A stretch of 45,893 bases of DNA, from positions 1-45,893 of the IMG/VR virus record IMGVR_UViG_3300036792_000545; one strand, 5' to 3'. The notes below the pieces were generated by a model. That model was not told the origin of the DNA. It saw only the letters and a program-made list of their open reading frames with translations, and did not search any database. This DNA is from a virus. Positions 1,765 to 45,893 of the stretch are shown piece by piece. The translations under genes and the position numbers were made by a program. Numbering within the stretch: the first letter of the stretch is position 1; each line of letters starts with the position of its first letter.

Positions 1765-1985
1765 CCCCCTGCCCGCACTGCCACCACACCTACCTCCACG
1801 CGCCCCGCTGCCCCTCCCCACATCTGCTGCCCGCTTATGCGGTGCGCCCCGCCCCGCCCGCGCGCTGCCCTGACTGCTCAAGCCTGCGACCGGGCGTGCA
1901 TCGTGCGGTCTGCCCAGTGCGCGAGCTGGGTGCTGGGGTGATCGAGGTGCCGGTGCGGGGTGAGGGATTGGAGGGCGCGCGGTGA
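1761..1985 (+). CDS. Small Cys-rich (zinc-ribbon-like) protein
   Basis: 74-residue protein beginning MTPCPHCHHTY, with a second CPDC motif near residue 36 and a proline-rich middle. Two paired CxxC motifs suggest a small zinc ribbon. Its ATG overlaps the previous stop as ATGA. It is one of many tiny putative zinc-binding proteins in the early region. Function unknown; a DNA-binding or protein-adaptor role would be a guess. Confidence 0.6.
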   Translation: MTPCPHCHHTYLHAPRCPSPHLLPAYAVRPAPPARCPDCSSLRPGVHRAVCPVRELGAGVIEVPVRGEGLEGAR

Positions 1986-2743
1986 GCGGCCATCTTTTCC
2001 CTGGAAGTCGTCGCGTTGTTGTCGGATTCTCTGGCGGGGTCACGTCGGCTTGGTGCGCTGGCTGGGCGTTGCGCAACTTCCCAAAGGATGAGGTGGTCCT
2101 GCTCTGGCATGACACCAAGGAAGAGGACGGGGACACATACCGCTTCCTCATCCAGATGGCGGAGGCACTAAATCACCCCATCACGGAGCGCTCAGATGGT
2201 CGGAGTGTCACCGAATTGAGCCACGACATGGGGATGCTGCCAAACGACCGAGCGGCATTCTGCTCGCGCATATTAAAGCGCGAGCAGGGGGAGAAGTATT
2301 TCCACGAGCTCCGGCGCGAGGGCGTGACCGAAATTATCAAGGTGGTCGGGTTTAGCGCGAATGAACCTGACCGCGTGCAGAACATGACGGCGCACAGTTG
2401 GCGCGATGGATACACGCTTCGTTTTCCCATTATTGAGGAGGGCATCACAAAGCAGCAATGCGCCGAATGGTGCTCGCTCGTTATGGGGCTGCCTATCCCT
2501 GATATGTACCGGTGGAGTGATCACGCGAACTGCCCAGGGTGCGTGCGCGGCGGAAAGGATTACTGGCTTGCGGTTTTACGTGAGAAGCCAGAGGTATTTG
2601 CGCAACGAAGTGGGCTAGAGCAGGAGTTCGGACACACCTTCAGTTCGCGATACTCCCTCATCCAGATAGCCGCTGAAGGAATGAAGCGTAAGGTAAACCG
2701 CCGCGAGGCAATCGATATTGCGTCCTGCGAGTGTGGCTCATGA
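1982..2743 (+). CDS. PP-loop ATPase, PAPS-reductase/DndC-like
   Basis: 253-residue protein of the PAPS reductase / N-type ATP pyrophosphatase superfamily. The PP-loop is SGGVTS at residues 17-22, after the beta strand VVVGF. A CSRILK segment and a cysteine pair in NCPGCVRGGKDYW (about residue 185) match the shape of phage 'PAPS reductase-like' proteins. These enzymes adenylate a substrate and often act in sulfur chemistry; DndC, which works in DNA phosphorothioation, is a relative. No DndB/D/E partner is seen here. It starts with GTG overlapping the previous stop as GTGA. The exact substrate cannot be told from the sequence. Confidence 0.82.
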   Translation: MSGHLFPGSRRVVVGFSGGVTSAWCAGWALRNFPKDEVVLLWHDTKEEDGDTYRFLIQMAEALNHPITERSDGRSVTELSHDMGMLPNDRAAFCSRILKREQGEKYFHELRREGVTEIIKVVGFSANEPDRVQNMTAHSWRDGYTLRFPIIEEGITKQQCAEWCSLVMGLPIPDMYRWSDHANCPGCVRGGKDYWLAVLREKPEVFAQRSGLEQEFGHTFSSRYSLIQIAAEGMKRKVNRREAIDIASCECGS

Positions 2744-14433: not shown

Positions 14434-14627
14434 TTGGGAGGGTCCGCCACACTCGGCTCCTTGATGTTGAAGAACTGGTGCGCGGCGGAGTATGCCCATG
14501 CGTACGCAGTCCCCCACGTGAGCGTGCTTCCGGGCGCGGGCATGGTCTTGATCGCCGCGGTCACCACAAGCGGAACCACGACGCTCAGGGCTTCTTTGTG
14601 CGCGGTCAGGAACGCGAGGATGTTCAT
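14430..14627 (-). CDS. Holin-like small membrane protein
   Basis: 65-residue protein (MNILAFLTAHKEALSVVVPL...) with one clear hydrophobic segment, ALSVVVPLVVTAAI, and a second weakly hydrophobic helix (GTAYAWAYSAAHQFF). Size, membrane character and position directly after the lysozyme gene (ATGA overlap) fit a holin or pinholin. No named holin family is evident, so the call rests on context. Confidence 0.55.
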   Translation of the reverse strand: MNILAFLTAHKEALSVVVPLVVTAAIKTMPAPGSTLTWGTAYAWAYSAAHQFFNIKEPSVADPPK

Positions 14628-15199
14628 GCCGCCACCTTCATGCTGTACGCCTGCGAGAACTGTTGCGCAGTCCAAGTGTTGCGCGCGATCCCGGGTCCGT
14701 TGCGGTGACACTGACCGGCACACGTCAGCCAGTCCTCTTCGCTCGCGGCGTGGTTGAATACCGGGTATCCGGTGCGCAGCTCGCCGAGCCCGAGGTTGTA
14801 CGCCATGTCCAGAGTCGCGAGCTTCGCCGGTTCGGGCCATGCCGTGTAGGTTGAATAAGTGGCCGCGAGCTGGGCATCGATCGCGCCGAGCTCCACTTTG
14901 AGCATGTGCAGCATGTCCACGTCCGTCAGCATGAGCGAAGCCGCCCACTTGTAATAGGACGCCGTGAATCCGGGTTGCGACTTTTTCACGCGGGCGAACT
15001 CGGACGCGATCTCCTTCGCGGTGGCGCTCCGGCTGAAGTCAGTGATGTACCAAGGGAGCGCGAGGGCCGCATCGAGGTTGGCCAGCATGAGTCCGATGGC
15101 TGCCGTCACGTTCGCCGGCTTGGCGCTGTCGAGGTACATGAATGGGATCTTGCCCTCGAATGCGGCAGTGTTCTCGGCGGCGTCATCCAGATAGCTCAT
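14624..15199 (-). CDS. GH24-like endolysin (phage lysozyme)
   Basis: 191-residue muramidase-like protein that would cut the glycan strands of peptidoglycan. The catalytic triad pattern of T4-type lysozymes is visible: Glu15 in AFEGK, Asp24 in FMYLDS (nine residues later, as in T4 E11/D20) and Thr32 in NVTAAIG. Further on, KLATLDMAYNLGLGEL matches the LDxAYNLG signature of phage lysozymes and the region ending NHAASEEDWLTCAGQCHRNG fits the WxxCxxxCHRNG part. No signal peptide, so it needs a holin; candidates flank it. Confidence 0.82.
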   Translation of the reverse strand: MSYLDDAAENTAAFEGKIPFMYLDSAKPANVTAAIGLMLANLDAALALPWYITDFSRSATAKEIASEFARVKKSQPGFTASYYKWAASLMLTDVDMLHMLKVELGAIDAQLAATYSTYTAWPEPAKLATLDMAYNLGLGELRTGYPVFNHAASEEDWLTCAGQCHRNGPGIARNTWTAQQFSQAYSMKVAA

Positions 15200-15657: not shown

Positions 15658-16785
15658 ATGCCGACCGAAGTCTATACCATGCAGAAAAATAGCGAACGAA
15701 AGCAGTTCGCGGGAATTCAGGCGCTCCGTGGGATTGCTGCATGCATGGTCGTTGCTACGCATGCAACATTTCTATGGAGTCAGGATTTTGGGGGCAACAA
15801 TAATTCTTCCTTTTGGGAGAATGGGTCTTCTGGGGTAGACATATTCTTCGTCATAAGCGGGTTCGTCATGGCGATCTCCATCAAGAATCTAACGTGGTCA
15901 AAATTTATCGGAAGACGCCTGCTTAGAATCGCCCCGCTCTACTGGCTGATCACTTCGCTCACACTGCTCAAGTTGTTAGCAATTGCGATTCACCCATCGC
16001 TCGCAATCAACGCCACGCACCTTCACGTGCCATTGGATTACATCCTGGCATCCTTTTTATTTATCCCCTACCGAAACTCGGTCGGCCTCATACAGCCAAT
16101 TGTTTCTGCGGGATGGACGCTCTCTTTTGAGATGTTCTTCTATTGCCTATTTGCTCTTGCTCTGGCGCTCAAGGTGCACGTAGTTCGCTTCCTGACCCCC
16201 ACGCTTATCATCCTCGCGTTGGTTGGATTGCTCCACACGGGCAAATGGCCCTCAGTGACCGAATTAGCTAGCCCGCTGCTACTGGAGTTCCTCGCCGGGG
16301 TTCTTCTGGCATATGCGGTAGGATTCGGTTTCCGCATAAACGCTGCGGTCTCTTCATTCTTAGGAATCATTGGATTTTCGGGGGTCATGACTCTCCATAT
16401 TCCCAATTTTCCCGGAGGAAGAGCGCTAGCATGGGGGGCTTCCGCCTTCCTTGTCGTGCAAGCATTCGTGATGCTCGAAGATAAGCTCGGGACCTTCATC
16501 CCTCGCTGGATTTTGCGCATCGGAGATGCCTCCTACTCGCTTTACTTGGGACACATGCTTGTAGGTTTGGCGGCCGTCCGGATCATCATTATGACTGGCA
16601 TTCCATCCTCCAGCGAGGCACTCCTTGCCGCCATATTGATAGTAATTTCAGTCGCGACTTCGCTGCCATTGCACAGTTACGTCGAGAAGCCGCTTACGGC
16701 GTGGTGCTCGCGTGCGTGGAGTCGTGATGCACGGCTAGTTGATGACCGTATAGCTCAAGCACGCCGGGTTAGTCGTACGGTCTGA
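15658..16785 (+). CDS. Acyltransferase-3 family protein (OafA/YrhL-like), lysogenic conversion candidate
   Basis: 375-residue integral membrane O-acyltransferase with about ten hydrophobic helices. Family signatures: IQALRGIAACMVVATHA with the catalytic-type His near the end of helix 1, SSGVDIFFVISGFVM, RRLLRIAPLYWL, WTLSFEMFFY, GDASYSLYLGH and a final YVEKPLT. Such enzymes O-acetylate surface glycans. In phages like P22, SfV and Sf6 this changes the O antigen and blocks superinfection. It lies alone on the plus strand between the lysis cassette and the tailspike gene with its own promoter and less GC-rich codons, as expected of a moron. AAGAGGAG precedes the ATG. Confidence 0.9.
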   Translation: MPTEVYTMQKNSERKQFAGIQALRGIAACMVVATHATFLWSQDFGGNNNSSFWENGSSGVDIFFVISGFVMAISIKNLTWSKFIGRRLLRIAPLYWLITSLTLLKLLAIAIHPSLAINATHLHVPLDYILASFLFIPYRNSVGLIQPIVSAGWTLSFEMFFYCLFALALALKVHVVRFLTPTLIILALVGLLHTGKWPSVTELASPLLLEFLAGVLLAYAVGFGFRINAAVSSFLGIIGFSGVMTLHIPNFPGGRALAWGASAFLVVQAFVMLEDKLGTFIPRWILRIGDASYSLYLGHMLVGLAAVRIIIMTGIPSSSEALLAAILIVISVATSLPLHSYVEKPLTAWCSRAWSRDARLVDDRIAQARRVSRTV

Positions 16786-16915: not shown

Positions 16916-19675
16916 TTAGAAGCAGGTGTAGGAGAAGTAGTATGTCGTGCTTGCTACAGTTACCTGGTTCATTGCCATCGTCGCACTTCCCGCACCGCCA
17001 CCTGCCCACATTGGCCAGTACCCCGTGAAGGGAGTGATCGTACACGCCATATTGTGCGGGGGTGCGACGGTAGGGGTAAGGGTGACCAGTGTCGTGTTGG
17101 ACGAGGAGACACTACTTGCCGCATACTGTACCACCCCAGAGGTTGCCGTACACATGAACCCGATAGCGCAGGTAGCAGTCCCATTGGTGCCCGCGCTCGT
17201 CATCCCACCGTTTCCGATGTAGTACTGCGAGGAGGTCGTGCCGTTTACCGTAAGCGGATAGGGAGGCTCATTGCTGCTGCTCCATCCCGGTCCGATGCCG
17301 ACGTTCTTGCTGAGATCATCAGCCCATAGGATATTCGTGAACGCGTTGCCGCTTGCCCCGGGCTGGTCTACATCTTGGTAGGTGTTATCAGTCTGCCGGT
17401 AGCCAATCTGGAAGTAGCAGTTGCTGGTGCTATTGAGTGGGTGCGCAAGCGCGAAGGTAGAACCCTTAGCACCAAGGAGCGTTTTGCAGATGGTCGCCCC
17501 GTTGGTCCCTGCGGGTTCCGGCGTTTGGAATACGGTTGGGGATCCTATGCCTAGCCCATTGACGTTGCCATAATCGAGGCCACCGCTGTAGATGACCTGC
17601 GAACGCGGAATAGGGGGAGACCCTGCTCCAACGGCAGTCGCGAAACAATGCGTCATATTTCCGGTCACCGTCATCGAACCGGAGTTTGCAAACGAGGCGG
17701 AACTATTCGCAAGGTACACATCGCAAGCAGCAGACCCATCTACCTCTCCGCTCAGGTTTACGGTGCCTCGGATGATGGTCGTCCCATTGCCGAGATTGAA
17801 CACGCGATCGCCAGTCCCGCCCGTGTTCACCTTCGCGTTGATCGTATTCCCGAATAGGCCCGGAGGTGGTTGGCTCCCGGATGCGGCGACCGTGCAGAAT
17901 CCGTACGAATTCGTGCCGGTGAGATCGAAGTGGATGTTGGGCCACGAGTTATAAAAGAAGCTCCCACCCGCTGTCGTCATGGACGGGTCATTCACGAAAC
18001 TAACCGCGCAGGAATTTGACCCCACCGCAAACTCGATGCCGCCCCATTCCTGCTCTTCGGTATAGCCGGGCTCGCCATTCGTAAAGCCGTTGTACATCGT
18101 AATGCCAGTAGCCCCTAGGCTGAACGTGTTGTGCGTCATCTTGAAGAAGGTGCGGGAGTACAGGTGGAAAGTTGCCGCGGTGTCAGAAAACGTAATGAAG
18201 CAGTTGCGCATCTCGCCCGAGTTGAAGGTATTTTCTCCTTTGATAGTGACGGCATCCGTACTTGCACCCGTGAATGAGTGGCCCGTGAATGTGATCGTCG
18301 AGCCCTTGCAGTCTAGAACTGGTCGCGTGATGTAGGGTGTCGATGTGGAGTTTGGGATGACCAGCGTCGTCGCCGACACCGTATACTGCTGGGTCGGGTT
18401 CAGGTCCACCTCCACGCCGGATTGCGGGCTACCCGAGGACCCTGCTTGGGAGGTGAAAGCTGCATTGATCTTGGCAGCAATATCTCCGCCCGATTGGTCA
18501 TCAGCCAAGACGATATAGTTCACGCTGGGTGCAAGGAAGGGGTTGCCGAACCCGATCGAGTGCGTCCCTGACGACCCTGCACACGTGAAGTTGAAGTTCA
18601 TATTTGGGTTGGCACCTGAACCCACCGCGTTGGAGCTGCTGCAGGTGTCGTACACGGATTGAGTGCCATTCCAGTACGCTGCCGAATAGGAGAATGCCGG
18701 GCTGCCATAATTTGCGGAAGATGTCGCGGTCGCGTTAGGCAGCAGTGCGGCGTTCGAGTTTCCAGGTGCCCCTACAACCTGAAGGCTGCCAGCAGCCCCT
18801 ATAACGACGGTGCTGTTGAAGGTATTTCCGTTCGAAAAGGTGTTATAGGAGCCAGACAGCTGCGCATAGTTATTCGCAGCTACGCCCCCGAGGCTGCTGG
18901 CGTTGACCGTCCCCGTAGACGTATATCCCAGCGATGAACCTGCCCCCACCACCATCGCTGCACTGGTATTCGTGCCTCCGGTGATCGCCGAAAACGGACT
19001 CGCAGGTACCGTGCAGCTCGCGCCGAGGGTGCAGGTCTGCCCGTTTACCGTTGTGCTCGGATTGGCGAGCGCAGAATTCGGGATCGCGCTGGCCGCCACG
19101 GCCAAATTCGGCGTGCTGGTCGCGTTTGTCACCGTTGGCACTAGCCACGATGGCCATGATCCCGCAGGAGCCGTGAATGTGGTCACCGATCCACCACTGA
19201 ACGGAGCCCAGCATGCCGCCGTGGTTGAGCTCGTAATCAGGGCGTATCCGGTCGCGCTGGACGGCCCCACACAAATCGCCACGCCATTCAGGTAGTTCGC
19301 CGCGATCGTGCCAGCGCCCGGCGCCAGCGATCCGCCAGATGCCATCGTCAGCGTGGCCGCGCTCGCTCCATTGGTCACTGATGCCCACGAGGGCGAGCCG
19401 ACCGTCATCGACGTGCAGGCGAATGCGTGCGTCGAGGTGCTGTAGGTCAGCCCATGCAGTCCGTCGCTCGCGCAGTTGTACATTTGCTCGAATGCGATGA
19501 CGGTGGCCGAGGTCGCAATCGGAATCTGGTCGGCTGCGGTGGGCTGAGTGCCAAGGCCGCCATTTGCGGGGGGGAGCACGCCGCGCACCTGCGTCTGCAG
19601 GTTGATCGTCTGCGCGAACGCGGGCACGCCCAGCACGAGCGCAAGAATAAAGCTAAGCCGTCCAATTCGCCGCAA
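16916..19675 (-). CDS. Tailspike/tail fibre with Sec signal peptide and beta-helix
   Basis: 919-residue adhesin or depolymerase. It begins with a classical signal peptide (MRRIGRLSFILALVLG, then VPAFAQ), followed by the GVLPPANGGLGT segment seen in phage fibre proteins. Long Ser/Thr/Gly-rich repeats follow, then a right-handed beta-helix-like part (from about residue 400: IVLADDQSGGDIAAKINAA, later GNTINAKVNTGG and NLSGEVDG). The C-terminal tail is Thr-rich. The TTG at 19675 was chosen because CAGGAG lies about 5 bases upstream. It follows the ejection and appendage genes, the usual place for receptor-binding proteins. A Sec signal on a virion protein is odd. Confidence 0.75.
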   Translation of the reverse strand: MRRIGRLSFILALVLGVPAFAQTINLQTQVRGVLPPANGGLGTQPTAADQIPIATSATVIAFEQMYNCASDGLHGLTYSTSTHAFACTSMTVGSPSWASVTNGASAATLTMASGGSLAPGAGTIAANYLNGVAICVGPSSATGYALITSSTTAACWAPFSGGSVTTFTAPAGSWPSWLVPTVTNATSTPNLAVAASAIPNSALANPSTTVNGQTCTLGASCTVPASPFSAITGGTNTSAAMVVGAGSSLGYTSTGTVNASSLGGVAANNYAQLSGSYNTFSNGNTFNSTVVIGAAGSLQVVGAPGNSNAALLPNATATSSANYGSPAFSYSAAYWNGTQSVYDTCSSSNAVGSGANPNMNFNFTCAGSSGTHSIGFGNPFLAPSVNYIVLADDQSGGDIAAKINAAFTSQAGSSGSPQSGVEVDLNPTQQYTVSATTLVIPNSTSTPYITRPVLDCKGSTITFTGHSFTGASTDAVTIKGENTFNSGEMRNCFITFSDTAATFHLYSRTFFKMTHNTFSLGATGITMYNGFTNGEPGYTEEQEWGGIEFAVGSNSCAVSFVNDPSMTTAGGSFFYNSWPNIHFDLTGTNSYGFCTVAASGSQPPPGLFGNTINAKVNTGGTGDRVFNLGNGTTIIRGTVNLSGEVDGSAACDVYLANSSASFANSGSMTVTGNMTHCFATAVGAGSPPIPRSQVIYSGGLDYGNVNGLGIGSPTVFQTPEPAGTNGATICKTLLGAKGSTFALAHPLNSTSNCYFQIGYRQTDNTYQDVDQPGASGNAFTNILWADDLSKNVGIGPGWSSSNEPPYPLTVNGTTSSQYYIGNGGMTSAGTNGTATCAIGFMCTATSGVVQYAASSVSSSNTTLVTLTPTVAPPHNMACTITPFTGYWPMWAGGGAGSATMAMNQVTVASTTYYFSYTCF

Positions 19676-20183
19676 GGGAATCTCCTGTCTGTAGCGCCGT
19701 CGCAAGCGTTACCGTAGCGCCGCTGATCGTGTACCCGAGGTTGAGGGTAAGTCGCATGCCGTTCTGGAAAAGATTCAGCGAGCCGGTTGGCGGCGCCGAT
19801 GGCAGCACGAAAACGCTACCTGGGATCGCGCCCGTGATCGTCCCTGCCGTCGTGGAGCAATCCACATACGAGATCGACGCACCCCCTGATCCGCCATTCG
19901 GGTACTGGTCCGCGTATACAAGGGGCGCCGCAAAGAGTGGGTGATTGTAGACGATGGTGTACGGCGCCCCCGAAGCCTGCACGTAGGGCTGCGCCTGCCC
20001 GAATCCATCCGAATAGAACGGATTCATGCCAGCATCCCCAGCCGCATCCGCATACACGGTCGCTAGCGGACTCGGGGGCAGGCTGGTTGTGGTCGCAGGC
20101 TGGGTGCAGATCCAGATCTCCGCACCCGAGAGCGGCGTCCCCTGCCCGTCCGTGACCGTCAGATTGAATGGAACTATGGCCAT
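19653..20183 (-). CDS. Tail appendage protein with Ig-like N-terminus
   Basis: 176-residue protein. The first part, FNLTVTDGQGTPLSGAEIWI, looks like a carboxypeptidase-regulatory or Ig-like beta sandwich; the rest is Gly/Ser/Thr-rich with YTIVYNHPLFAAPLVYADQY. Placed just upstream of the tailspike gene and overlapping its start region by 23 bases. Probably an adaptor or chaperone joining the tailspike to the hub; this is inferred from position. Confidence 0.55.
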   Translation of the reverse strand: MAIVPFNLTVTDGQGTPLSGAEIWICTQPATTTSLPPSPLATVYADAAGDAGMNPFYSDGFGQAQPYVQASGAPYTIVYNHPLFAAPLVYADQYPNGGSGGASISYVDCSTTAGTITGAIPGSVFVLPSAPPTGSLNLFQNGMRLTLNLGYTISGATVTLATALQTGDSLAANWTA

Positions 20184-20193
20184 TTCGTCTCCG

Positions 20194-20892
20194 TTACAGG
20201 ATTTTTGCCGCGATGGTTCCGGTCCCCGTGATGCCGCTCACGAGGAAACGGTAGAAGTTGCCCTGCGTGAGCGTGAACTGTGCCACTGGCCCAGTCGTGT
20301 ATGCTCCCGACTCGACTGCAGCCACAACGCCATTGGGTACGGTGGTGCTCGAAACGGTCGTGAAGTTGCCATCTTCATTCGTGACTGCTTCCTGCAGTAC
20401 TACCGTAGCCGCCGTCGGCATCGTCGGGAAGCTAACCTCGGTCGTGATCGTGCGTTGACCTCCGCTGCGAGGCTGCTGAATGCAGATCGCGATGGACGCG
20501 CCCGCAACCAGCGTCTCGGGGATCTCTGGCACCTCGACAATGGAAGTGCCCGCGTCCGCGGTCGCGGACTGGGTGCTGAACGTCCCCGAGAAGGTCAGAC
20601 TCCCCTGCCCGGTCGTCGCCGTGAACGCGGAGCCGGTTAGCGCGGCCCGGCTGACATTGAACGCGCCCGACTGCGAGGCCGTCTGCTGAATCGAGACAAG
20701 CGCGCCCACGAGCGGGATCTCGCCCTCGACGATGGTCCCGGTCACGATGGCGGATGCGGTGCTCGACGTGATCGACGAGATGTTGATGCGCGTGTTCGCC
20801 TGGCGGTAATTCTTCGAGCCAAAGAGGTAGTTGGGGACGCCCTCGATCAGCAGCGGTGCGGGGGTGAATGGAGAGTTTACGTATGCGGGCAT
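20194..20892 (-). CDS. Virion structural protein, beta-rich
   Basis: 232-residue protein with beta-strand and Thr/Ser/Val-rich composition throughout and no charged helical region. Its start overlaps the stop of the preceding gene by one base. No named family is recognised. Position between the ejection-type proteins and the tail appendages suggests a tail or head-fibre component. Confidence 0.55.
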   Translation of the reverse strand: MPAYVNSPFTPAPLLIEGVPNYLFGSKNYRQANTRINISSITSSTASAIVTGTIVEGEIPLVGALVSIQQTASQSGAFNVSRAALTGSAFTATTGQGSLTFSGTFSTQSATADAGTSIVEVPEIPETLVAGASIAICIQQPRSGGQRTITTEVSFPTMPTAATVVLQEAVTNEDGNFTTVSSTTVPNGVVAAVESGAYTTGPVAQFTLTQGNFYRFLVSGITGTGTIAAKIL

Positions 20893-25305: not shown

Positions 25306-28300
25306 CTATTTCACCCCGCGAATCGTATTCCATACATCCTTCGCGCCCGCCAGGATCGCGCGTGACAGGCTGATTGCGCCAGTGCAGGTGAATTCCATGA
25401 ATGTCCGCTGCGCTACGAAATTGCAGGTAAACTCGCGGTCCTCCAGTGCAGGATTCTGCGCGCTAAATCCGCCCGGCACCGTCCATGGGTAATATCCGTT
25501 CGTCGAATCATCCGGACCCAGCAGCTGATTCGGCAGCAGTCGCACGTTCGCGGTTGCACTGTTGCTCATGGTCAGCGTCCCGTACTTCCAGCGCTTGCGG
25601 AACATGCCCAGCAGCGGATACTTTGCCGCGTGGGTCGCGCTCCCGAATCCGGCCGTCGTGTACAGGAAGCTGATCGGGGTGCCGTCGTCGGTTTCGTTCG
25701 TCGGATCGAGCGCATACACCTTCGAGGACGCGATGCCGTTGCAGATGTACATTTGCTGCTGCGGGGGCGCATAGCTGGTCGTGACCACTTCCGCATGGCC
25801 GCCTGCTTGCGTCACTGTCGTTATCTCCGCGCCTCCCTGCTGCACGAACGCGGCATATGGGCTGGGAATCTGCCAGATCGACCACTTCCGCCGCATGTCG
25901 ATCGCGTTCAGGGTGCCGAACATAGTCGTGTGCATCCCCGGCGATGACATAATTTCGGCGCCCGAGTCGATGCCCTGATAATTCAGCATCAGCATCACGT
26001 TTGGGCTCGTCGGGGCCGCGTTCGCCGGCGCATTCGGAAGCCAGAAATTCGGTGTCGGCAGCGGAATTCCAACCAGCAGCCGCCGCGCCACCACATCATT
26101 CTTGATCCAGATCGAATTCCCAGCACTCCAGTTGATCGCGTCCCATATCTGGTAAATCTCCTGCATGATCTTGCCAGGCTGGCCACCGGCGAAGAGGTAG
26201 ATTCCGTTCCGGCACCCGCTCACTATCCACTGCTCGCCCACGTCCGAGGAGTTGATTCCGATCGAACCGGATTTCTGCGACACCTCATTGATTGTCCAGT
26301 TCGCAGGCTCGAGATTCGCGCTCGCCTGCGTCGAGTACATGCTCGATCCCTTCAGGAAGTAGAGCGTGTCGTACATTTCCTGCGCGAAATTGACCGGTTG
26401 CGGGTTGCCATTGAGGATGAGTTGGTTATCGCCATCGACCGACTCGGGATTGGCCACATAGGAGGCGTAAACGGTCGTGGCCAGAACCGGGATAGCCGTG
26501 TTGAAGACCTCGATGCGATCAATCTCCAGGTCCGCCCCCGGTGCCATATTTTGTCCATAGACCCAGATGACGAGTGCGGGCGGGACCGTGGCAAAGGGTA
26601 CCGTCAAGAAGGTTCCCGTGTAGGTAGCGTATGAGGTTGACATGGCGGAAAACTGGACGCCGAAGCTGCCATAGGCGATCCCATTCGCCACGAGTTGGAT
26701 CTCCAGAAAACCTCCCGTGATTCCAGACGGGCAGCGCGCTGTAACTCTGACGGAATACGCTGTGTTCGCGTTGATGATCGGGACTTGGTAATAGTCTTGG
26801 TAGGCGCCCTGCTGGATCAGCCCGCAGCCAGAGGTGATCATGGACGCCGAAGTATTCTGAATATAGTATGAGTTACCAAAAATTGGAGACACAACCAATT
26901 TTCCATATTGGTCGGGTATCGTCCACCCCAGCGGAACTGCCTTTGCTCCGGGATTGTAGCCGCCATCGAAACTGAGATTCAGGAAGTTCTGGATCTTGTT
27001 CTGGCAGAGTCCATAGAAATTCCTGCTCGCGTAATTCACGATCCAGCCCGGATTTCCAATCTCGATCAGGTTGAAGAGATTATTTCCCTGCACATCGCAG
27101 GCCTGCGCCGCGAGTAGCACCGAATCCGTAAAGAAGAAACTTCCGGATGTCGTCACGTTGTCCATGATCACGGTCGCGGTCGCGGTATAGGCCACGTTTT
27201 CGACGATGTACTGCACGGGAACCGGGATATTGAAGAAGAATCCGCCCGGAACGCCCAGCGCGCCGCTCTCCGTGAACAGGAAGTAGCGCCCGACCACGTT
27301 CGGCGGACCGATCGCAGCCTGCGAATAATTGATCGCGGTCGTGTTGTTCGGCACCGTGAAGGTCACTGGGATGCTCGGCGGCGTCCAGTAGCCATTCCGC
27401 GTAATGAACCCCATGCAGCCCTGTTTCGTGCCTGCGGAGACGTACTGGCCAACATTGCTGACGGTGATGACGCCGCCGGTACCAGTTCCATAGATCGGAC
27501 TGTTTGAGGTTCCAAGCGTCAGCATACCCGGCTCGAAGTCGAACTCGGTACCCGCTGTCGTCGCCTGGCCTGATTCGGACTGTGCCCCGTAATTAGTCGC
27601 GGCGCTGAAATTGTTGATTGTGAAGGTTCCGAGATTTGTCCCGGTCACCGCCGCGATCGTATTGTTGACGACGTTCAGTTGCCCGTTTGCGTTCAGGGTT
27701 CCCGTAATGGTAACGAGCTGTCCGGCGGTGGGGTTCGCGCCCGATACCACCGCATACGAATAGGTCGCGATGCCACTCGTGAGCGAGGTTTGCGTGATCG
27801 CCATCGCGCCCGAGTTCAATGTCTGCGTGATCGGCCACGTCGCATCCCAGGCGGTGACCGAGTTCCCGCTCACCACCGCGCTCGTCCCCACCGTGAGCTG
27901 CGGCACCGGCACGGAGGTCGTCATGGTCGCAAGGGTGCGTTGATAGTGCGCGGTGTAGCTCGGCTGCCCACTGCCTGAGTAAAGCGTATACACGGAAGTG
28001 GATACCTGATATGTAAAATAGTAGAACTGGCGAGGCTGGCCCGGGGGCGTGCCCTCGCCAACGCTGGTCACGATCACCGTATACGGCCCCTGCGTCGCCG
28101 GCCCTCCAGTGAAGCTGGTATACAGATAGACCGCGTTCCCGGAGTTGAAGGCGTTTACAAGGTCTGCATCCGCCGGCCCCTGCGTCGAGTCCGCATAGTA
28201 GACCGTGACCACGTTCCCAGCCTGATTCGATCCCGGCCCGGTCGATTGCAGGAAGTAAGCAAATTGCCATGCCTTCGCCGTGGGCTGCGTGATTGTCGAG

Positions 28301-29325
28301 ATGGCGTAGGTGGTCGACTGCGCGGAGCTCGCAGAAAATACAGGAGGCGCGCCCGGACCAACCTGCGATATGCGATCAATCCATTTCGGCGTGTACTGGC
28401 GCGGGATGTCGCATCCGGCCGTAAGGTCGTTGAATGCTAGGTACTCGACATCGGGGCCATTGACGCCATTCGCATAGGAACCAGGAGTGATCCCCTCATA
28501 TGCCAGCGTCAGGGTGCCAGGGTTGTTCGTGGCGTCCTCGACCCACAGATCGCCATTCGCATCAAGCGAGAGATTCTTCCATGCTCCGTCCTGCGCCTCG
28601 AAGCTTGTGACGAAGTTGAAGTTCGCATTTGCGGTCGTGACTCCGAGCTGCACCGTCATATAGCCAAGGAACAGTTCCGCAAGTGGAAACGCGCTGGACG
28701 CGGTGATCTGCACGCCAAATTCGGTTCCATTCGCAGCCGCAGCCGTAAGCGCGGCGCCCCACGAATTACCGAGACCTCCCAGCGTGAAGGTTCCGGCCGA
28801 GCTCGGCACGCTCACCGTCTGCGCGACCCCGGCTGCGACACCCGCGATCAGGAGTTGCGCCGAGAGCGTAACTACGGAAGTCGCATATCCATTCAGCGAC
28901 AGAATGACGCCAGTTGGGGTAATTGTGGATGGAAGGTTGAACCCGAACCCAGTTATGTTGAGTGGATCAGCGCCAGGGACATATTGCCGCGGGGGGAGCC
29001 CGTGGACTGGAGTGGTTACGACTGCCGTTCCGGGGTAGCACGACGCATAGCCAGATCCTCCGATCAGCACCGCGCCCATGTCGTTCCATGGAGCGGGGCC
29101 TGTCACGTCTGCTACAGACGTAGCCCCATTTGGCCCGACCGACTCGCCAGAATAGGTGTAGACGCTCGTGGTTCCGGGGCGCAGATGCGTCTCTCCCACA
29201 AGATAGTCGTTGTCGTAGCAGCGCGGGCTCGCCCCCTCAGGAAGGGAGTCGGGACTCGCCAGCGTGACGAGTCCCAAGAATGCTTCAAGCGGAACGGGAG
29301 CGAGTGCCGGAGTGATGTTGTGCAC
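25306..29325 (-). CDS. Large tail hub / packaged-DNA stabilisation protein (P22 gp10-like)
   Basis: 1339-residue virion protein. The N-terminus has the gp10-type opening: LEAFLGLVTLASPDSLPEG, CYDNDYLVGETHLRPGT. The last ~450 residues contain beta-propeller-like repeats (TLYFLKGSSMYSTQAS-type, SGCRNGIYLFAGGQPG, MYICNGIASSKVYALDP), also typical of hub proteins that close the portal. Between them lie about 600 residues of Ser/Thr/Gly-rich Ig-like repeats, so it is nearly three times the P22 length. It probably plugs the portal and carries the tailspikes. It starts overlapping the previous gene's stop by one base. Confidence 0.6.
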   Translation of the reverse strand: MHNITPALAPVPLEAFLGLVTLASPDSLPEGASPRCYDNDYLVGETHLRPGTTSVYTYSGESVGPNGATSVADVTGPAPWNDMGAVLIGGSGYASCYPGTAVVTTPVHGLPPRQYVPGADPLNITGFGFNLPSTITPTGVILSLNGYATSVVTLSAQLLIAGVAAGVAQTVSVPSSAGTFTLGGLGNSWGAALTAAAANGTEFGVQITASSAFPLAELFLGYMTVQLGVTTANANFNFVTSFEAQDGAWKNLSLDANGDLWVEDATNNPGTLTLAYEGITPGSYANGVNGPDVEYLAFNDLTAGCDIPRQYTPKWIDRISQVGPGAPPVFSASSAQSTTYAISTITQPTAKAWQFAYFLQSTGPGSNQAGNVVTVYYADSTQGPADADLVNAFNSGNAVYLYTSFTGGPATQGPYTVIVTSVGEGTPPGQPRQFYYFTYQVSTSVYTLYSGSGQPSYTAHYQRTLATMTTSVPVPQLTVGTSAVVSGNSVTAWDATWPITQTLNSGAMAITQTSLTSGIATYSYAVVSGANPTAGQLVTITGTLNANGQLNVVNNTIAAVTGTNLGTFTINNFSAATNYGAQSESGQATTAGTEFDFEPGMLTLGTSNSPIYGTGTGGVITVSNVGQYVSAGTKQGCMGFITRNGYWTPPSIPVTFTVPNNTTAINYSQAAIGPPNVVGRYFLFTESGALGVPGGFFFNIPVPVQYIVENVAYTATATVIMDNVTTSGSFFFTDSVLLAAQACDVQGNNLFNLIEIGNPGWIVNYASRNFYGLCQNKIQNFLNLSFDGGYNPGAKAVPLGWTIPDQYGKLVVSPIFGNSYYIQNTSASMITSGCGLIQQGAYQDYYQVPIINANTAYSVRVTARCPSGITGGFLEIQLVANGIAYGSFGVQFSAMSTSYATYTGTFLTVPFATVPPALVIWVYGQNMAPGADLEIDRIEVFNTAIPVLATTVYASYVANPESVDGDNQLILNGNPQPVNFAQEMYDTLYFLKGSSMYSTQASANLEPANWTINEVSQKSGSIGINSSDVGEQWIVSGCRNGIYLFAGGQPGKIMQEIYQIWDAINWSAGNSIWIKNDVVARRLLVGIPLPTPNFWLPNAPANAAPTSPNVMLMLNYQGIDSGAEIMSSPGMHTTMFGTLNAIDMRRKWSIWQIPSPYAAFVQQGGAEITTVTQAGGHAEVVTTSYAPPQQQMYICNGIASSKVYALDPTNETDDGTPISFLYTTAGFGSATHAAKYPLLGMFRKRWKYGTLTMSNSATANVRLLPNQLLGPDDSTNGYYPWTVPGGFSAQNPALEDREFTCNFVAQRTFMEFTCTGAISLSRAILAGAKDVWNTIRGVK

Positions 29326-34178: not shown

Positions 34179-35060
34179 TTAGTAATCCTCAAGTACCAGC
34201 GAACCGGTAGTGGTCGCTCCGGTTACCGTTACCGCCGTGGTGCTGACCGATGTGGCAATCGACGCCGCCACATTATTGCTGGCGTAAACGCTGGGAGCGT
34301 TTACGAATGCCACTGGGTAGGTATAGCTGGCCGTGCCCAGGCATGCTGCAAGATGGATTGTCACCCGCTTATTGACGCTACCCTGAAAGGGCTCTACGAA
34401 TACTGCCTGCCCGGAGGTGCTGCAAGATACAGTGGTCTGATTGCCGGTGATAGTAAGTGCTTTTGAAGCACTCAATGTGGCCATCCCTCCAAAACTTCCA
34501 CCGTTGTTCAGGTAGGCTTTCTGAATAAATACTTCAGACCCCAGGGGGTGAGCAGGGCTGCCATATAGATACCAATCTTGATTGTTATCGAAGCAGGTCG
34601 CACTTGCTGCATAGCTAACCCCGGAAGACCATACGTGCTGGACTAAGCACCCATACCCAGAGGGGATCCCATTTGTCGAGCCGCTATTCGTTGAGGTAAC
34701 CTGCGTCAACGTACTCGGAGTCGCTGTGGCATCCCCATTCAAGGTTCCTGGGTAGAGCGTTCCTGCTGCCGGTGTGACTCCGCCAATCACTGCACCGTCG
34801 ATCGTGCCGCCAGTGATGGCCGCTGTTGCTCCACTGCCCGGCGCTGCAGCGATCGGATTCCACCATGTCGGGTTGGAGGATGGAGTCTCGACGGCATTGT
34901 TTGACTGCAGCGAAACATATGTCGTCCCGTTGTAGGTGACAATATTGCCCGCCGTGTACACCGTGTAGGAGTTCCACGCATCTCCTGGGCGTGGACCAGT
35001 CTGCGCTACAGCGAATATGGGGAGGAGCAGCAACAGCAATGCGGCGAAGCGAACTTTCAT
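34179..35060 (-). CDS. Secreted/fibre-like protein with CBM5/12-type chitin-binding module
   Basis: 293-residue protein with a perfect-looking Sec signal peptide (MKVRFAALLLLLLPIF, then AVAQ). Residues about 28-68 form a carbohydrate-binding module of the CBM5/12 kind: WNSYTVYTAGNIVTYNG, then YVSLQSNN and NPTWW, with the aromatic residues expected for chitin or cellulose binding. GGTIDGAVIGGVTPAAGTLYPG recalls tail-fibre segments, and a beta-rich C-terminus follows. It sits between the scaffold and capsid genes, where head fibres or decoration proteins are often encoded. The export signal is unexplained. Confidence 0.65.
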   Translation of the reverse strand: MKVRFAALLLLLLPIFAVAQTGPRPGDAWNSYTVYTAGNIVTYNGTTYVSLQSNNAVETPSSNPTWWNPIAAAPGSGATAAITGGTIDGAVIGGVTPAAGTLYPGTLNGDATATPSTLTQVTSTNSGSTNGIPSGYGCLVQHVWSSGVSYAASATCFDNNQDWYLYGSPAHPLGSEVFIQKAYLNNGGSFGGMATLSASKALTITGNQTTVSCSTSGQAVFVEPFQGSVNKRVTIHLAACLGTASYTYPVAFVNAPSVYASNNVAASIATSVSTTAVTVTGATTTGSLVLEDY

Positions 35061-40809: not shown

Positions 40810-40883
40810 TGGCACCGGGAAGCGGAATCGAACCGCTGCATTCAGTTTTGGAGACTGAGGTTCTGCCACTAAACTATCCCGGC
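40810..40883 (-). tRNA. tRNA-Trp (CCA anticodon)
   Basis: A 74-base cloverleaf including an encoded CCA end. Acceptor stem GCCGGGA pairs with TCCCGGT (G1-U72 wobble at the top), discriminator G. D stem GTTT/GAAC; anticodon stem TCAGT/ACTGA with the loop CTCCAAA, giving CCA = Trp; T stem AGCGG/CCGCT with loop TTCGATT. All stems pair, so it should be functional. It lies between the large terminase gene and the small-protein cluster, on the late strand, and would be transcribed with the late genes. Confidence 0.92.
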
Positions 40884-44580: not shown

Positions 44581-45030
44581 TCAGTCTTTGTACAGGTGGG
44601 AGACTACCTCTTGCTCCTCGCCATATGTCCGAAGAAGGACACGAGGCGACACCGCAGGAAGTCCTAGGCCAAGTATACCGATGAAGCGCTCGTTGAGGTT
44701 GGCGACGACAAGCTTACGAATCGTCGCATGCTTCTCGCAAACCATATCAAGACAGATAGATCCATCGGCTGTGGGGTGCTGCAAAATCTCTAGCAGCACG
44801 GCACGGCGGCTTGATCGAGATTCGAGATAGATCATAGCCAGATCGCGGATTGGGATCTGCGGAGAGAAGACCCCTTCCGGATAGGCACATACCCCTTCAC
44901 CCGCAGCGTCGTACTCTTTCTCCGTGCCAGGGGTGAACCGCCGCCCGTGTTTACGTAGTGCCAGATTTAGGCCAAAAGCGGCACATCCAACGATGCAAAT
45001 AGCGAGCCCAACCTCAAGATATGCGTGCAT
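44581..45030 (-). CDS. Membrane-anchored hypothetical protein
   Basis: 149-residue protein with one N-terminal hydrophobic helix (EVGLAICIVGCAAFGLNLAL), followed by a basic segment and a soluble helical domain (RDLAMIYLESRSSRRAVLLEI). No recognised family. Its start overlaps the end of the preceding membrane protein gene by 17 bases, so the two are probably made together. Confidence 0.55.
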   Translation of the reverse strand: MHAYLEVGLAICIVGCAAFGLNLALRKHGRRFTPGTEKEYDAAGEGVCAYPEGVFSPQIPIRDLAMIYLESRSSRRAVLLEILQHPTADGSICLDMVCEKHATIRKLVVANLNERFIGILGLGLPAVSPRVLLRTYGEEQEVVSHLYKD

Positions 45031-45721
45031 TGCCTTCCCTCGAACCGTGAAGTCCTAACTCAGGAGCGTCCGGCGCGGTCGGGCGTGATTCCCGATCCGC
45101 GATAGCCGCGATGAACCAAACAAGTAAAGCGCCAAGAGAAACAAAGTCGCACAGGTGGCAAATTGCCTTGTGAGCGATGAAATAGTCGAGCGCCCCAGCA
45201 TTAGCAGCCGAGGTCGCACCGAAGCCGATGATTTTGAGTAGTAAGGACTTAGGGAGAGGTGCAGATAAATAAATTGTATAAGGAAGCGCCATCCCGATCA
45301 TGGCGCAAATCGCGACCGAGAAGGCCTGATCCCATGCTAGGAGGAGTCGCCAATCTGGAGACTTGAGTAGCACAAGCGCGGGCTCGGCGGCGCGGATGCC
45401 AAAGGCGAATGAGATGCCACCGATGACTTGGATTGAGGCGAACGAACGGCGGGAGGGTAGCCCGCGGAGGCGGACTGTATTCAGGAGCGCCAGGGCTCCG
45501 AACAGGGCGATTCCCTCATAAAGGAAGACCGACGTGCGGTAGGCCGCGGAGTAGACCCGCAGGGAGCAAAATAGCGCGACACTTAGGCCCACAGAGCCTA
45601 CCAGTACTCCGGCGGCCAGGTAAGCCCTCATGAATCCCTTGCTCGCCACTGAGACGCCAATCTGAATCGCAAGCGTGGCCAGCATTAGATGAAGGGTAAG
45701 CGGGTCTATGCGAGTGTGCAT
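45014..45721 (-). CDS. Multi-span membrane protein
   Basis: 235-residue protein with about six or seven hydrophobic helices, for example LMLATLAIQIGVSVAS, AAGVLVGSVGLSVALF, YEGIALFGALALLN and FVSLGALLVWFIAAI. A CHLC motif near residue 190 is the only notable pair of cysteines. Proteins of this kind are found in Acidobacteriota genomes, from memory. No enzymatic motif. It might be a lysogeny-expressed moron or a host gene at the prophage edge. Confidence 0.6.
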   Translation of the reverse strand: MHTRIDPLTLHLMLATLAIQIGVSVASKGFMRAYLAAGVLVGSVGLSVALFCSLRVYSAAYRTSVFLYEGIALFGALALLNTVRLRGLPSRRSFASIQVIGGISFAFGIRAAEPALVLLKSPDWRLLLAWDQAFSVAICAMIGMALPYTIYLSAPLPKSLLLKIIGFGATSAANAGALDYFIAHKAICHLCDFVSLGALLVWFIAAIADRESRPTAPDAPELGLHGSREGNARIS

Positions 45722-45737
45722 TAGACCCGCCCCAAGA

Positions 45738-45893
45738 CTACTTCAGGCTGGGGGTACAGGGCGGACACGGGAAAGGTAGAGAAGTGGTTCCCTGTGGTTC
45801 TGGATGCGTCGCGGGGATGGTGGGGGTGGTGGCGATCGCGGTCAAGGCGAAGCCAAGTAGGGCGGCGGCAGAAAAGCGAAGGATGGTTTTCAT
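45738..45893 (-). CDS. Small secreted peptide at the window edge
   Basis: 51-residue product: signal peptide MKTILRFSAAALLGFALTAI, then a Pro/Thr-rich mature part with CPPC (PFPCPPCTPSLK). The start codon is the last three bases of the window. Mature length is only about 30 residues. Function unknown; the third exported-type product in this phage. Confidence 0.5.
   Translation of the reverse strand: MKTILRFSAAALLGFALTAIATTPTIPATHPEPQGTTSLPFPCPPCTPSLK

Follow-up and report, generated by a model that had tools for sequence, protein, structure and literature searches.

Predicted Sec signals on spike-like proteins of Acidobacteriota tailed phages: a possible periplasmic route to the virion

To our knowledge, known tail spikes fold in the cytoplasm and have no signal peptide. 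The phage DNA examined here contains a large spike-like ORF that opens with a predicted Sec signal, which raises the question of whether its product is exported and, if so, whether it still belongs to the virion. A sequence-only reading of this DNA had called a genuine Sec signal on such a gene unexpected, and we agree. The DNA analysed (the window) is the whole 45,893 nucleotides of IMG/VR record IMGVR_UViG_3300036792_000545. It represents a tailed phage, with an integrase (1-1176), a small terminase (Sf6-like) and a large terminase (PHROG match), and its late operon lies on the minus strand, where the spike is followed by a likely endolysin. The best explanation, to which we assign a probability of roughly 60%, is that such proteins are tail spikes exported by Sec, oxidatively folded in the periplasm and joined to virions at lysis.

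The spike ORF has the following elements.
16916-19675, minus strand: spike- or fibre-like protein of 919 aa with a predicted Sec signal; TTG start; mature part 898 aa with 20 cysteines
19613-19675, minus strand: signal peptide MRRIGRLSFILALVLGVPAFA, predicted cleavage before Q22
19682-19686, minus strand: Shine-Dalgarno AGGAG, separated by 6 nt from the TTG at 19675

The coordinates, strand, length, start codon and AGGAG first reported for this ORF all proved correct on re-check. With a slash marking the predicted cut, the precursor begins MRRIGRLSFILALVLGVPAFA/QTINLQTQVRGVLPPANGG (mature start QTINL), in which an n-region (MRRIGR), an h-region (LSFILALVLGV) and a c-region (PAFA/Q, cut after residue 21) can be told apart. 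The ORF thus combines the marks of a Sec and signal peptidase I substrate, namely an n-h-c signal, an A-x-A site and a start backed by a Shine-Dalgarno sequence. When window ORFs of at least 90 aa were scanned with one heuristic score, it ranked first (6.4), followed by the ORF at 34179-35060 (5.9) and the next at 5.1; the earlier description of a normal signal peptide with an AxA site holds. The claim that no alternative start follows the signal needs a small amendment: in-frame GTG codons occur at residues 30 and 33, past the predicted cleavage site, though neither has a Shine-Dalgarno sequence. The frame also stays open to a further TTG at 19705, 10 codons upstream, with no good ribosome-binding site there. 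These GTG codons, and the usual cytoplasmic location of virion proteins, would favour an inert or artefactual signal, arising from a downstream translation start or from an uncleaved hydrophobic start on a cytoplasmic virion protein. We find this hardly credible, given the bare GTGs and the evidence from relatives presented below.

Little can be read from the mature spike directly, and the beta-helical character first ascribed to it found no confirmation. It has no Pfam or PHROG family match, and its single-sequence AlphaFold model reached a pLDDT of 34, which makes a fold search on it meaningless (no significant fold match was returned). No full-length homologue was found in IMG/VR or among GenBank phages, and a degenerate DNA pattern for A-Q-x-I-[ND]-L-x-T-Q-V matched only the contig of one relative, L001, itself. 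The surroundings of the ORF are more informative.
14624-15199, minus strand: probable endolysin (weak PHROG endolysin match), the gene that follows the spike on the late strand
19653-20183, minus strand: 176-aa protein without signal; its first ~95 aa make up a domain found fused to a signal in L003/L052, L004/L051 and L028/L054
20194-20892, minus strand: conserved 232-aa tail-operon gene, an anchor gene just upstream of signal-bearing spikes in relatives
25306-29325, minus strand: conserved core tail protein of 1339 aa without signal, 63% identical in L001
32634-33989, minus strand: capsid-like protein of 451 aa, role inferred from position, used as an anchor for finding relatives
34179-35060, minus strand: second signal-bearing protein, 293 aa, with a CBM_5_12 domain, MKVRFAALLLLLLPIFAVA/QTGPRPGDAW and 4 cysteines

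A 23-nt overlap between the spike start and the 3' end of the 176-aa gene suggests that the spike is expressed as part of the operon. The interval from spike to endolysin holds an Acyltransferase_3 or O-acetyltransferase gene on the other strand (15658-16785, plus strand) that is probably a surface-modifying conversion gene.

Queries with the capsid-like protein and with the core tail protein of 1339 aa retrieved 24 related IMG/VR contigs and 5 contigs from Acidobacteriota MAGs, one of them Granulicella, from which we take the host phylum to be Acidobacteriota. For comparison, 14 clade records, of phages or prophages, were counted, comprising the window, L001, L103 and those stretches that reach past the conserved tail genes; 13 stretches were taken, and L061 and L063, which end before the spike position, were left out. 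Large spike-like genes with predicted Sec signals occur in all 14. In 13 of the 14 the signal-bearing spike lies directly downstream of the homologues of the genes at 20194 and 19653, the last conserved tail genes. The positional exception is L001, whose 859-aa spike lies in the head-gene region and has the same N-terminal module along with a GDSL hydrolase domain. Precursors in other records include those of L051 (1572 aa, MFRKLVFLLVTLGVSFGAAKA/QSYG), L054 (1440 aa, MRRYLGFLVLLMAPLAFS/QSYY), L056 (836 aa, MKKLAILLLLSVSAFA/QQINL), L059 (1501 aa, MRLKKTLALLLFASPLLG/QSPV) and L060 (796 aa, MRKVGISLLLLLFVRVIAA/QTIN). Their signals diverge in sequence and keep a hydrophobic core and an A-x-A/Q-like site, with Q at +1 in 31 proteins; the 12 signal proteins called in 20 pieces of the Granulicella genome are too few to tell whether this is a habit of the host. 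By the same score, and with every start within 30 codons tried, none of 208 core structural N-termini in the clade records has a signal, which speaks against an inert signal on the spikes. Beyond the spike-like genes, only a handful of small accessory genes have signals. Several of these, of ~95 aa, lie near or between portal and scaffold genes (L011 8229-8516, L012 2050-2337, L021 8232-8519, L025 2831-3121). Lysis genes come after the spike cluster in most records, and phage lysozymes lie downstream of spikes in relatives.

Beside the conserved tail core, the spike genes behave as variable, module-shuffled units in their C-terminal part. One N-terminal module is common to the window, L001, L053, L055 and L056, and the spikes of the window and L001, phages whose 1339-aa proteins are 63% identical, are alike in the N-terminal 57 aa only.

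A second signature accompanies the signals. Even cysteine numbers are favoured in exported bacterial proteins (PMC7678975). We assembled 36 distinct signal-bearing proteins, chosen by signal and partly by eye, never by their cysteines; 33 contain cysteine, and in 30 of these the number is even (binomial p 7e-7), versus 74/161 core structural homologues (Fisher p about 7e-7), both p values being approximate because modules are common to some of the proteins, which are not all independent. The count is 29/31 among signal-bearing proteins of at least 200 aa; of 9 more signal-bearing proteins collected subsequently, 8 have an even number. Cysteine makes up 2.0% of the signal-bearing mature parts vs 0.8% of the core structural homologues. 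Rich and evenly numbered cysteines suggest disulfide folding outside the cytoplasm, and such a bias in the mature parts would be unexpected for cytoplasmic proteins with an inert signal. Of the disulfide enzymes, VKOR is present in 3/3 host MAGs and DsbA in 2/3. The paired cysteines suggest that the spikes leave the cytoplasm to fold before joining the particle.

Signal-bearing spike-like genes are found beyond this clade. Tunturi_1 is a cultured, plaque-forming podovirus of Tunturiibacter (PMC11924767), whose capsid and large tail protein have no detectable similarity to those of the window. It nevertheless shows the same gene run as the window clade: its gp12, gp13, gp14, gp16 and gp17 all have signals and are followed by a lysozyme; gp14 is named 'tail spike protein' and gp17 'virion structural protein', names that are predictions. 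Tunturi gp17, which is 29% identical to a spike of L052 over 751 aa, has a CHB_HEX_C domain and a sub-threshold Beta_helix Pfam match. No signals were seen on the fibre genes of Tunturi_3 and Tunturi_4 (late genes, first 50 kb of each), so not every phage of this host has the trait. A Mu-like prophage (matches to MuA, a MuB-like protein and repressor) from a different genome within the host order contains a similar run, of four consecutive signal-bearing genes (L105 3615-10357, minus strand), and the CHB_HEX_C module recurs there. This cluster borders a peptidoglycan hydrolase (lysis) gene rather than tail genes, and lies upstream of genes assigned to terminase and tail by their order and size. 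By these sequence comparisons, signal-bearing spike-like genes recur in three phage lineages of one bacterial phylum, a further point against an inert signal. The earlier suggestion that the start was captured from a secreted host protein finds no support as a single event: the distribution is clade-wide and includes two unrelated lineages, with differing signal sequences and with disulfide-type cysteines alongside. Export before lysis is the best supported of the options first raised, and export of the signal-bearing spike-like proteins as predicted from their sequences is well supported.

Whether the exported proteins would also enter the particle is a separate matter. The domain of the 176-aa gene stands directly behind the signal in L003/L052, L004/L051 and L028/L054, with several more cysteines in two of these. 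In the PDB, a profile of nine such anchor-like domains had as its top match, a weak one (E 0.054), the chains of the tail spike from cyanopodophage Pan3 (9vyg), and Foldseek with a model of the 176-aa gene (five sequences, pLDDT 50) placed 9vyg and the Pam1 tail machine at the top (E 0.2). Profile and fold search both point to the tail spike or tail machine of podophages, a weak indication in which neither match is significant alone. Because the proteins occupy the spike position, behave as receptor-binding genes and have the anchor-like domain in some relatives, and because the late genes of Tunturi_1 and of the window clade show no further large, variable candidate for receptor binding, their best reading is as virion spikes, virion membership being what we infer. 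A term search of the main text of PMC11924767 found neither 'mass spectrometry' nor 'structural protein'.

The main rival would make them secreted enzymes or adhesins (depolymerases, esterases, carbohydrate-binding proteins) that use spike modules and never enter the particle, their release before or at lysis clearing polysaccharide, spreading progeny or blocking reinfection. Secretion of this kind fits the signals and the disulfide pattern, and carbohydrate-related modules are frequent (CBM_5_12 in the window, the GDSL hydrolase of L001, CHB_HEX_C in Tunturi gp17 and the Mu-like prophage). The operon position of the signal-bearing genes varies; and a spike homologue in a genome contig (L104 6056-9747, minus strand), 39% identical to the Granulicella prophage spike, is paired with a 242-aa signal-bearing gene; DUF3738 and SdpI genes lie nearby, no prophage is recognisable around the pair, and the two may be a remnant or domesticated. 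Against this rival stand the signal-fused anchor-like domain in three relatives and the lack of any other receptor-binding candidate noted above, and we consider it somewhat unlikely. (Profile matches L106-L108 were discarded, as their alignments hardly reached beyond the signal.) Quite improbable, in our estimate, is that these are lysogenic-conversion proteins, displayed by the lysogen and altering its adhesion or excluding superinfecting phages. The integrase, the relative embedded in a 63-kb Granulicella contig and the O-acetyltransferase-type gene adjoining the spike are in keeping with that role, but the signal-bearing genes lie inside the late operon, no surface anchor is seen, and plaque-forming Tunturi_1 has the same kind of genes (PMC11924767).

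On the preferred reading of exported virion spikes, the gene product would be a tail spike or fibre that binds the receptor. It would be synthesised as a precursor for Sec and exported late in infection. Signal peptidase would cut it before Gln22, and it would fold in the periplasm with disulfide bonds introduced by the host oxidative system (VKOR/DsbA), while heads and tail cores were built in the cytoplasm without it. Once the endolysin opened the envelope, the two pools would mix and the exported spikes attach, at or after lysis. Purified P22 spikes, according to the older literature, can be added in vitro to spike-less particles. We know of no tailed phage with a split assembly line of this kind, in which exported spikes dock on spike-less virions. 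The proposal has against it that the cytoplasm is where tailed phages are normally finished. The anchor-like gene without signal in the window's own lineage also counts against it, since an exported spike would then have to meet a cytoplasmic partner. So does the location of the L001 spike and the window's CBM_5_12 protein in the head region, as accessory genes behave; the latter sits between the scaffold-like and capsid genes and is missing at that place in L001-L004. Stated for Acidobacteriota tailed phages in general, with spikes Sec-exported, disulfide-bonded in the periplasm and docked on spike-less virions at lysis, the proposal is in our judgement an even bet.

The clade proteins resemble podovirus tail spikes (the P22 gp9 type and the Pan3 and Pam1 tail machines) in that they lie where the tail operon ends and have a putative anchor-like N-terminal module, a variable C-terminal part and, in relatives, carbohydrate-directed modules; they differ in their Sec signals and paired cysteines. 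The filamentous phage protein pIII is a receptor-binding virion protein that loses its signal by cleavage and has disulfide bonds, and as proposed receptor-binding proteins with a signal and a disulfide signature the clade spikes are similar; filamentous phages assemble in the membrane, whereas the present phages are tailed, with terminase, portal and head. Morons of the lambda Lom and Bor type are signal-bearing genes in or beside late operons, but their products are small lipoproteins or outer-membrane proteins that lysogens express, whereas the clade proteins are large, modular and often several per phage. Sec-exported endolysins of tailed phages (Lys44 of Oenococcus phage fOg44, and SAR endolysins) are late proteins passing through host Sec (PMC6116005); unlike the proposed spikes, they are periplasmic lysis enzymes rather than host-recognition proteins. 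Phage DGR target proteins have no signal peptides (PMC6199706). Sec signals on tail spikes were not described anywhere in the literature searched, which lay mostly outside subscription journals.

If the proposal is true, several soil-phage lineages make their host-recognition proteins by a route other than the textbook one, and tailed-phage virions need not be assembled entirely in the cytoplasm. Spikes with disulfide bonds might withstand acidic soils better, and would be unable to act within the producing cell. For annotation, proteins that look like secreted enzymes of bacteria may be receptor-binding proteins of phages. The idea can be tested directly with Tunturi_1 and Tunturi_2, which are in culture.

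Elsewhere in the window, 45014-45893 (minus strand) holds a multi-membrane CHLC-motif protein and, at the window's end, a short signal-bearing ORF (MKTILRFSAAALLGFALTAIA); the CHLC-motif gene (45014-45721) was considered as a disulfide enzyme and set aside, its Pfam search being empty. A PAPS-reductase-like gene at 1982-2743 (plus strand) has a weak Pfam match under the cut-off, and a tRNA-Trp (CCA) gene at 40810-40883 (minus strand) adjoins the large terminase gene.
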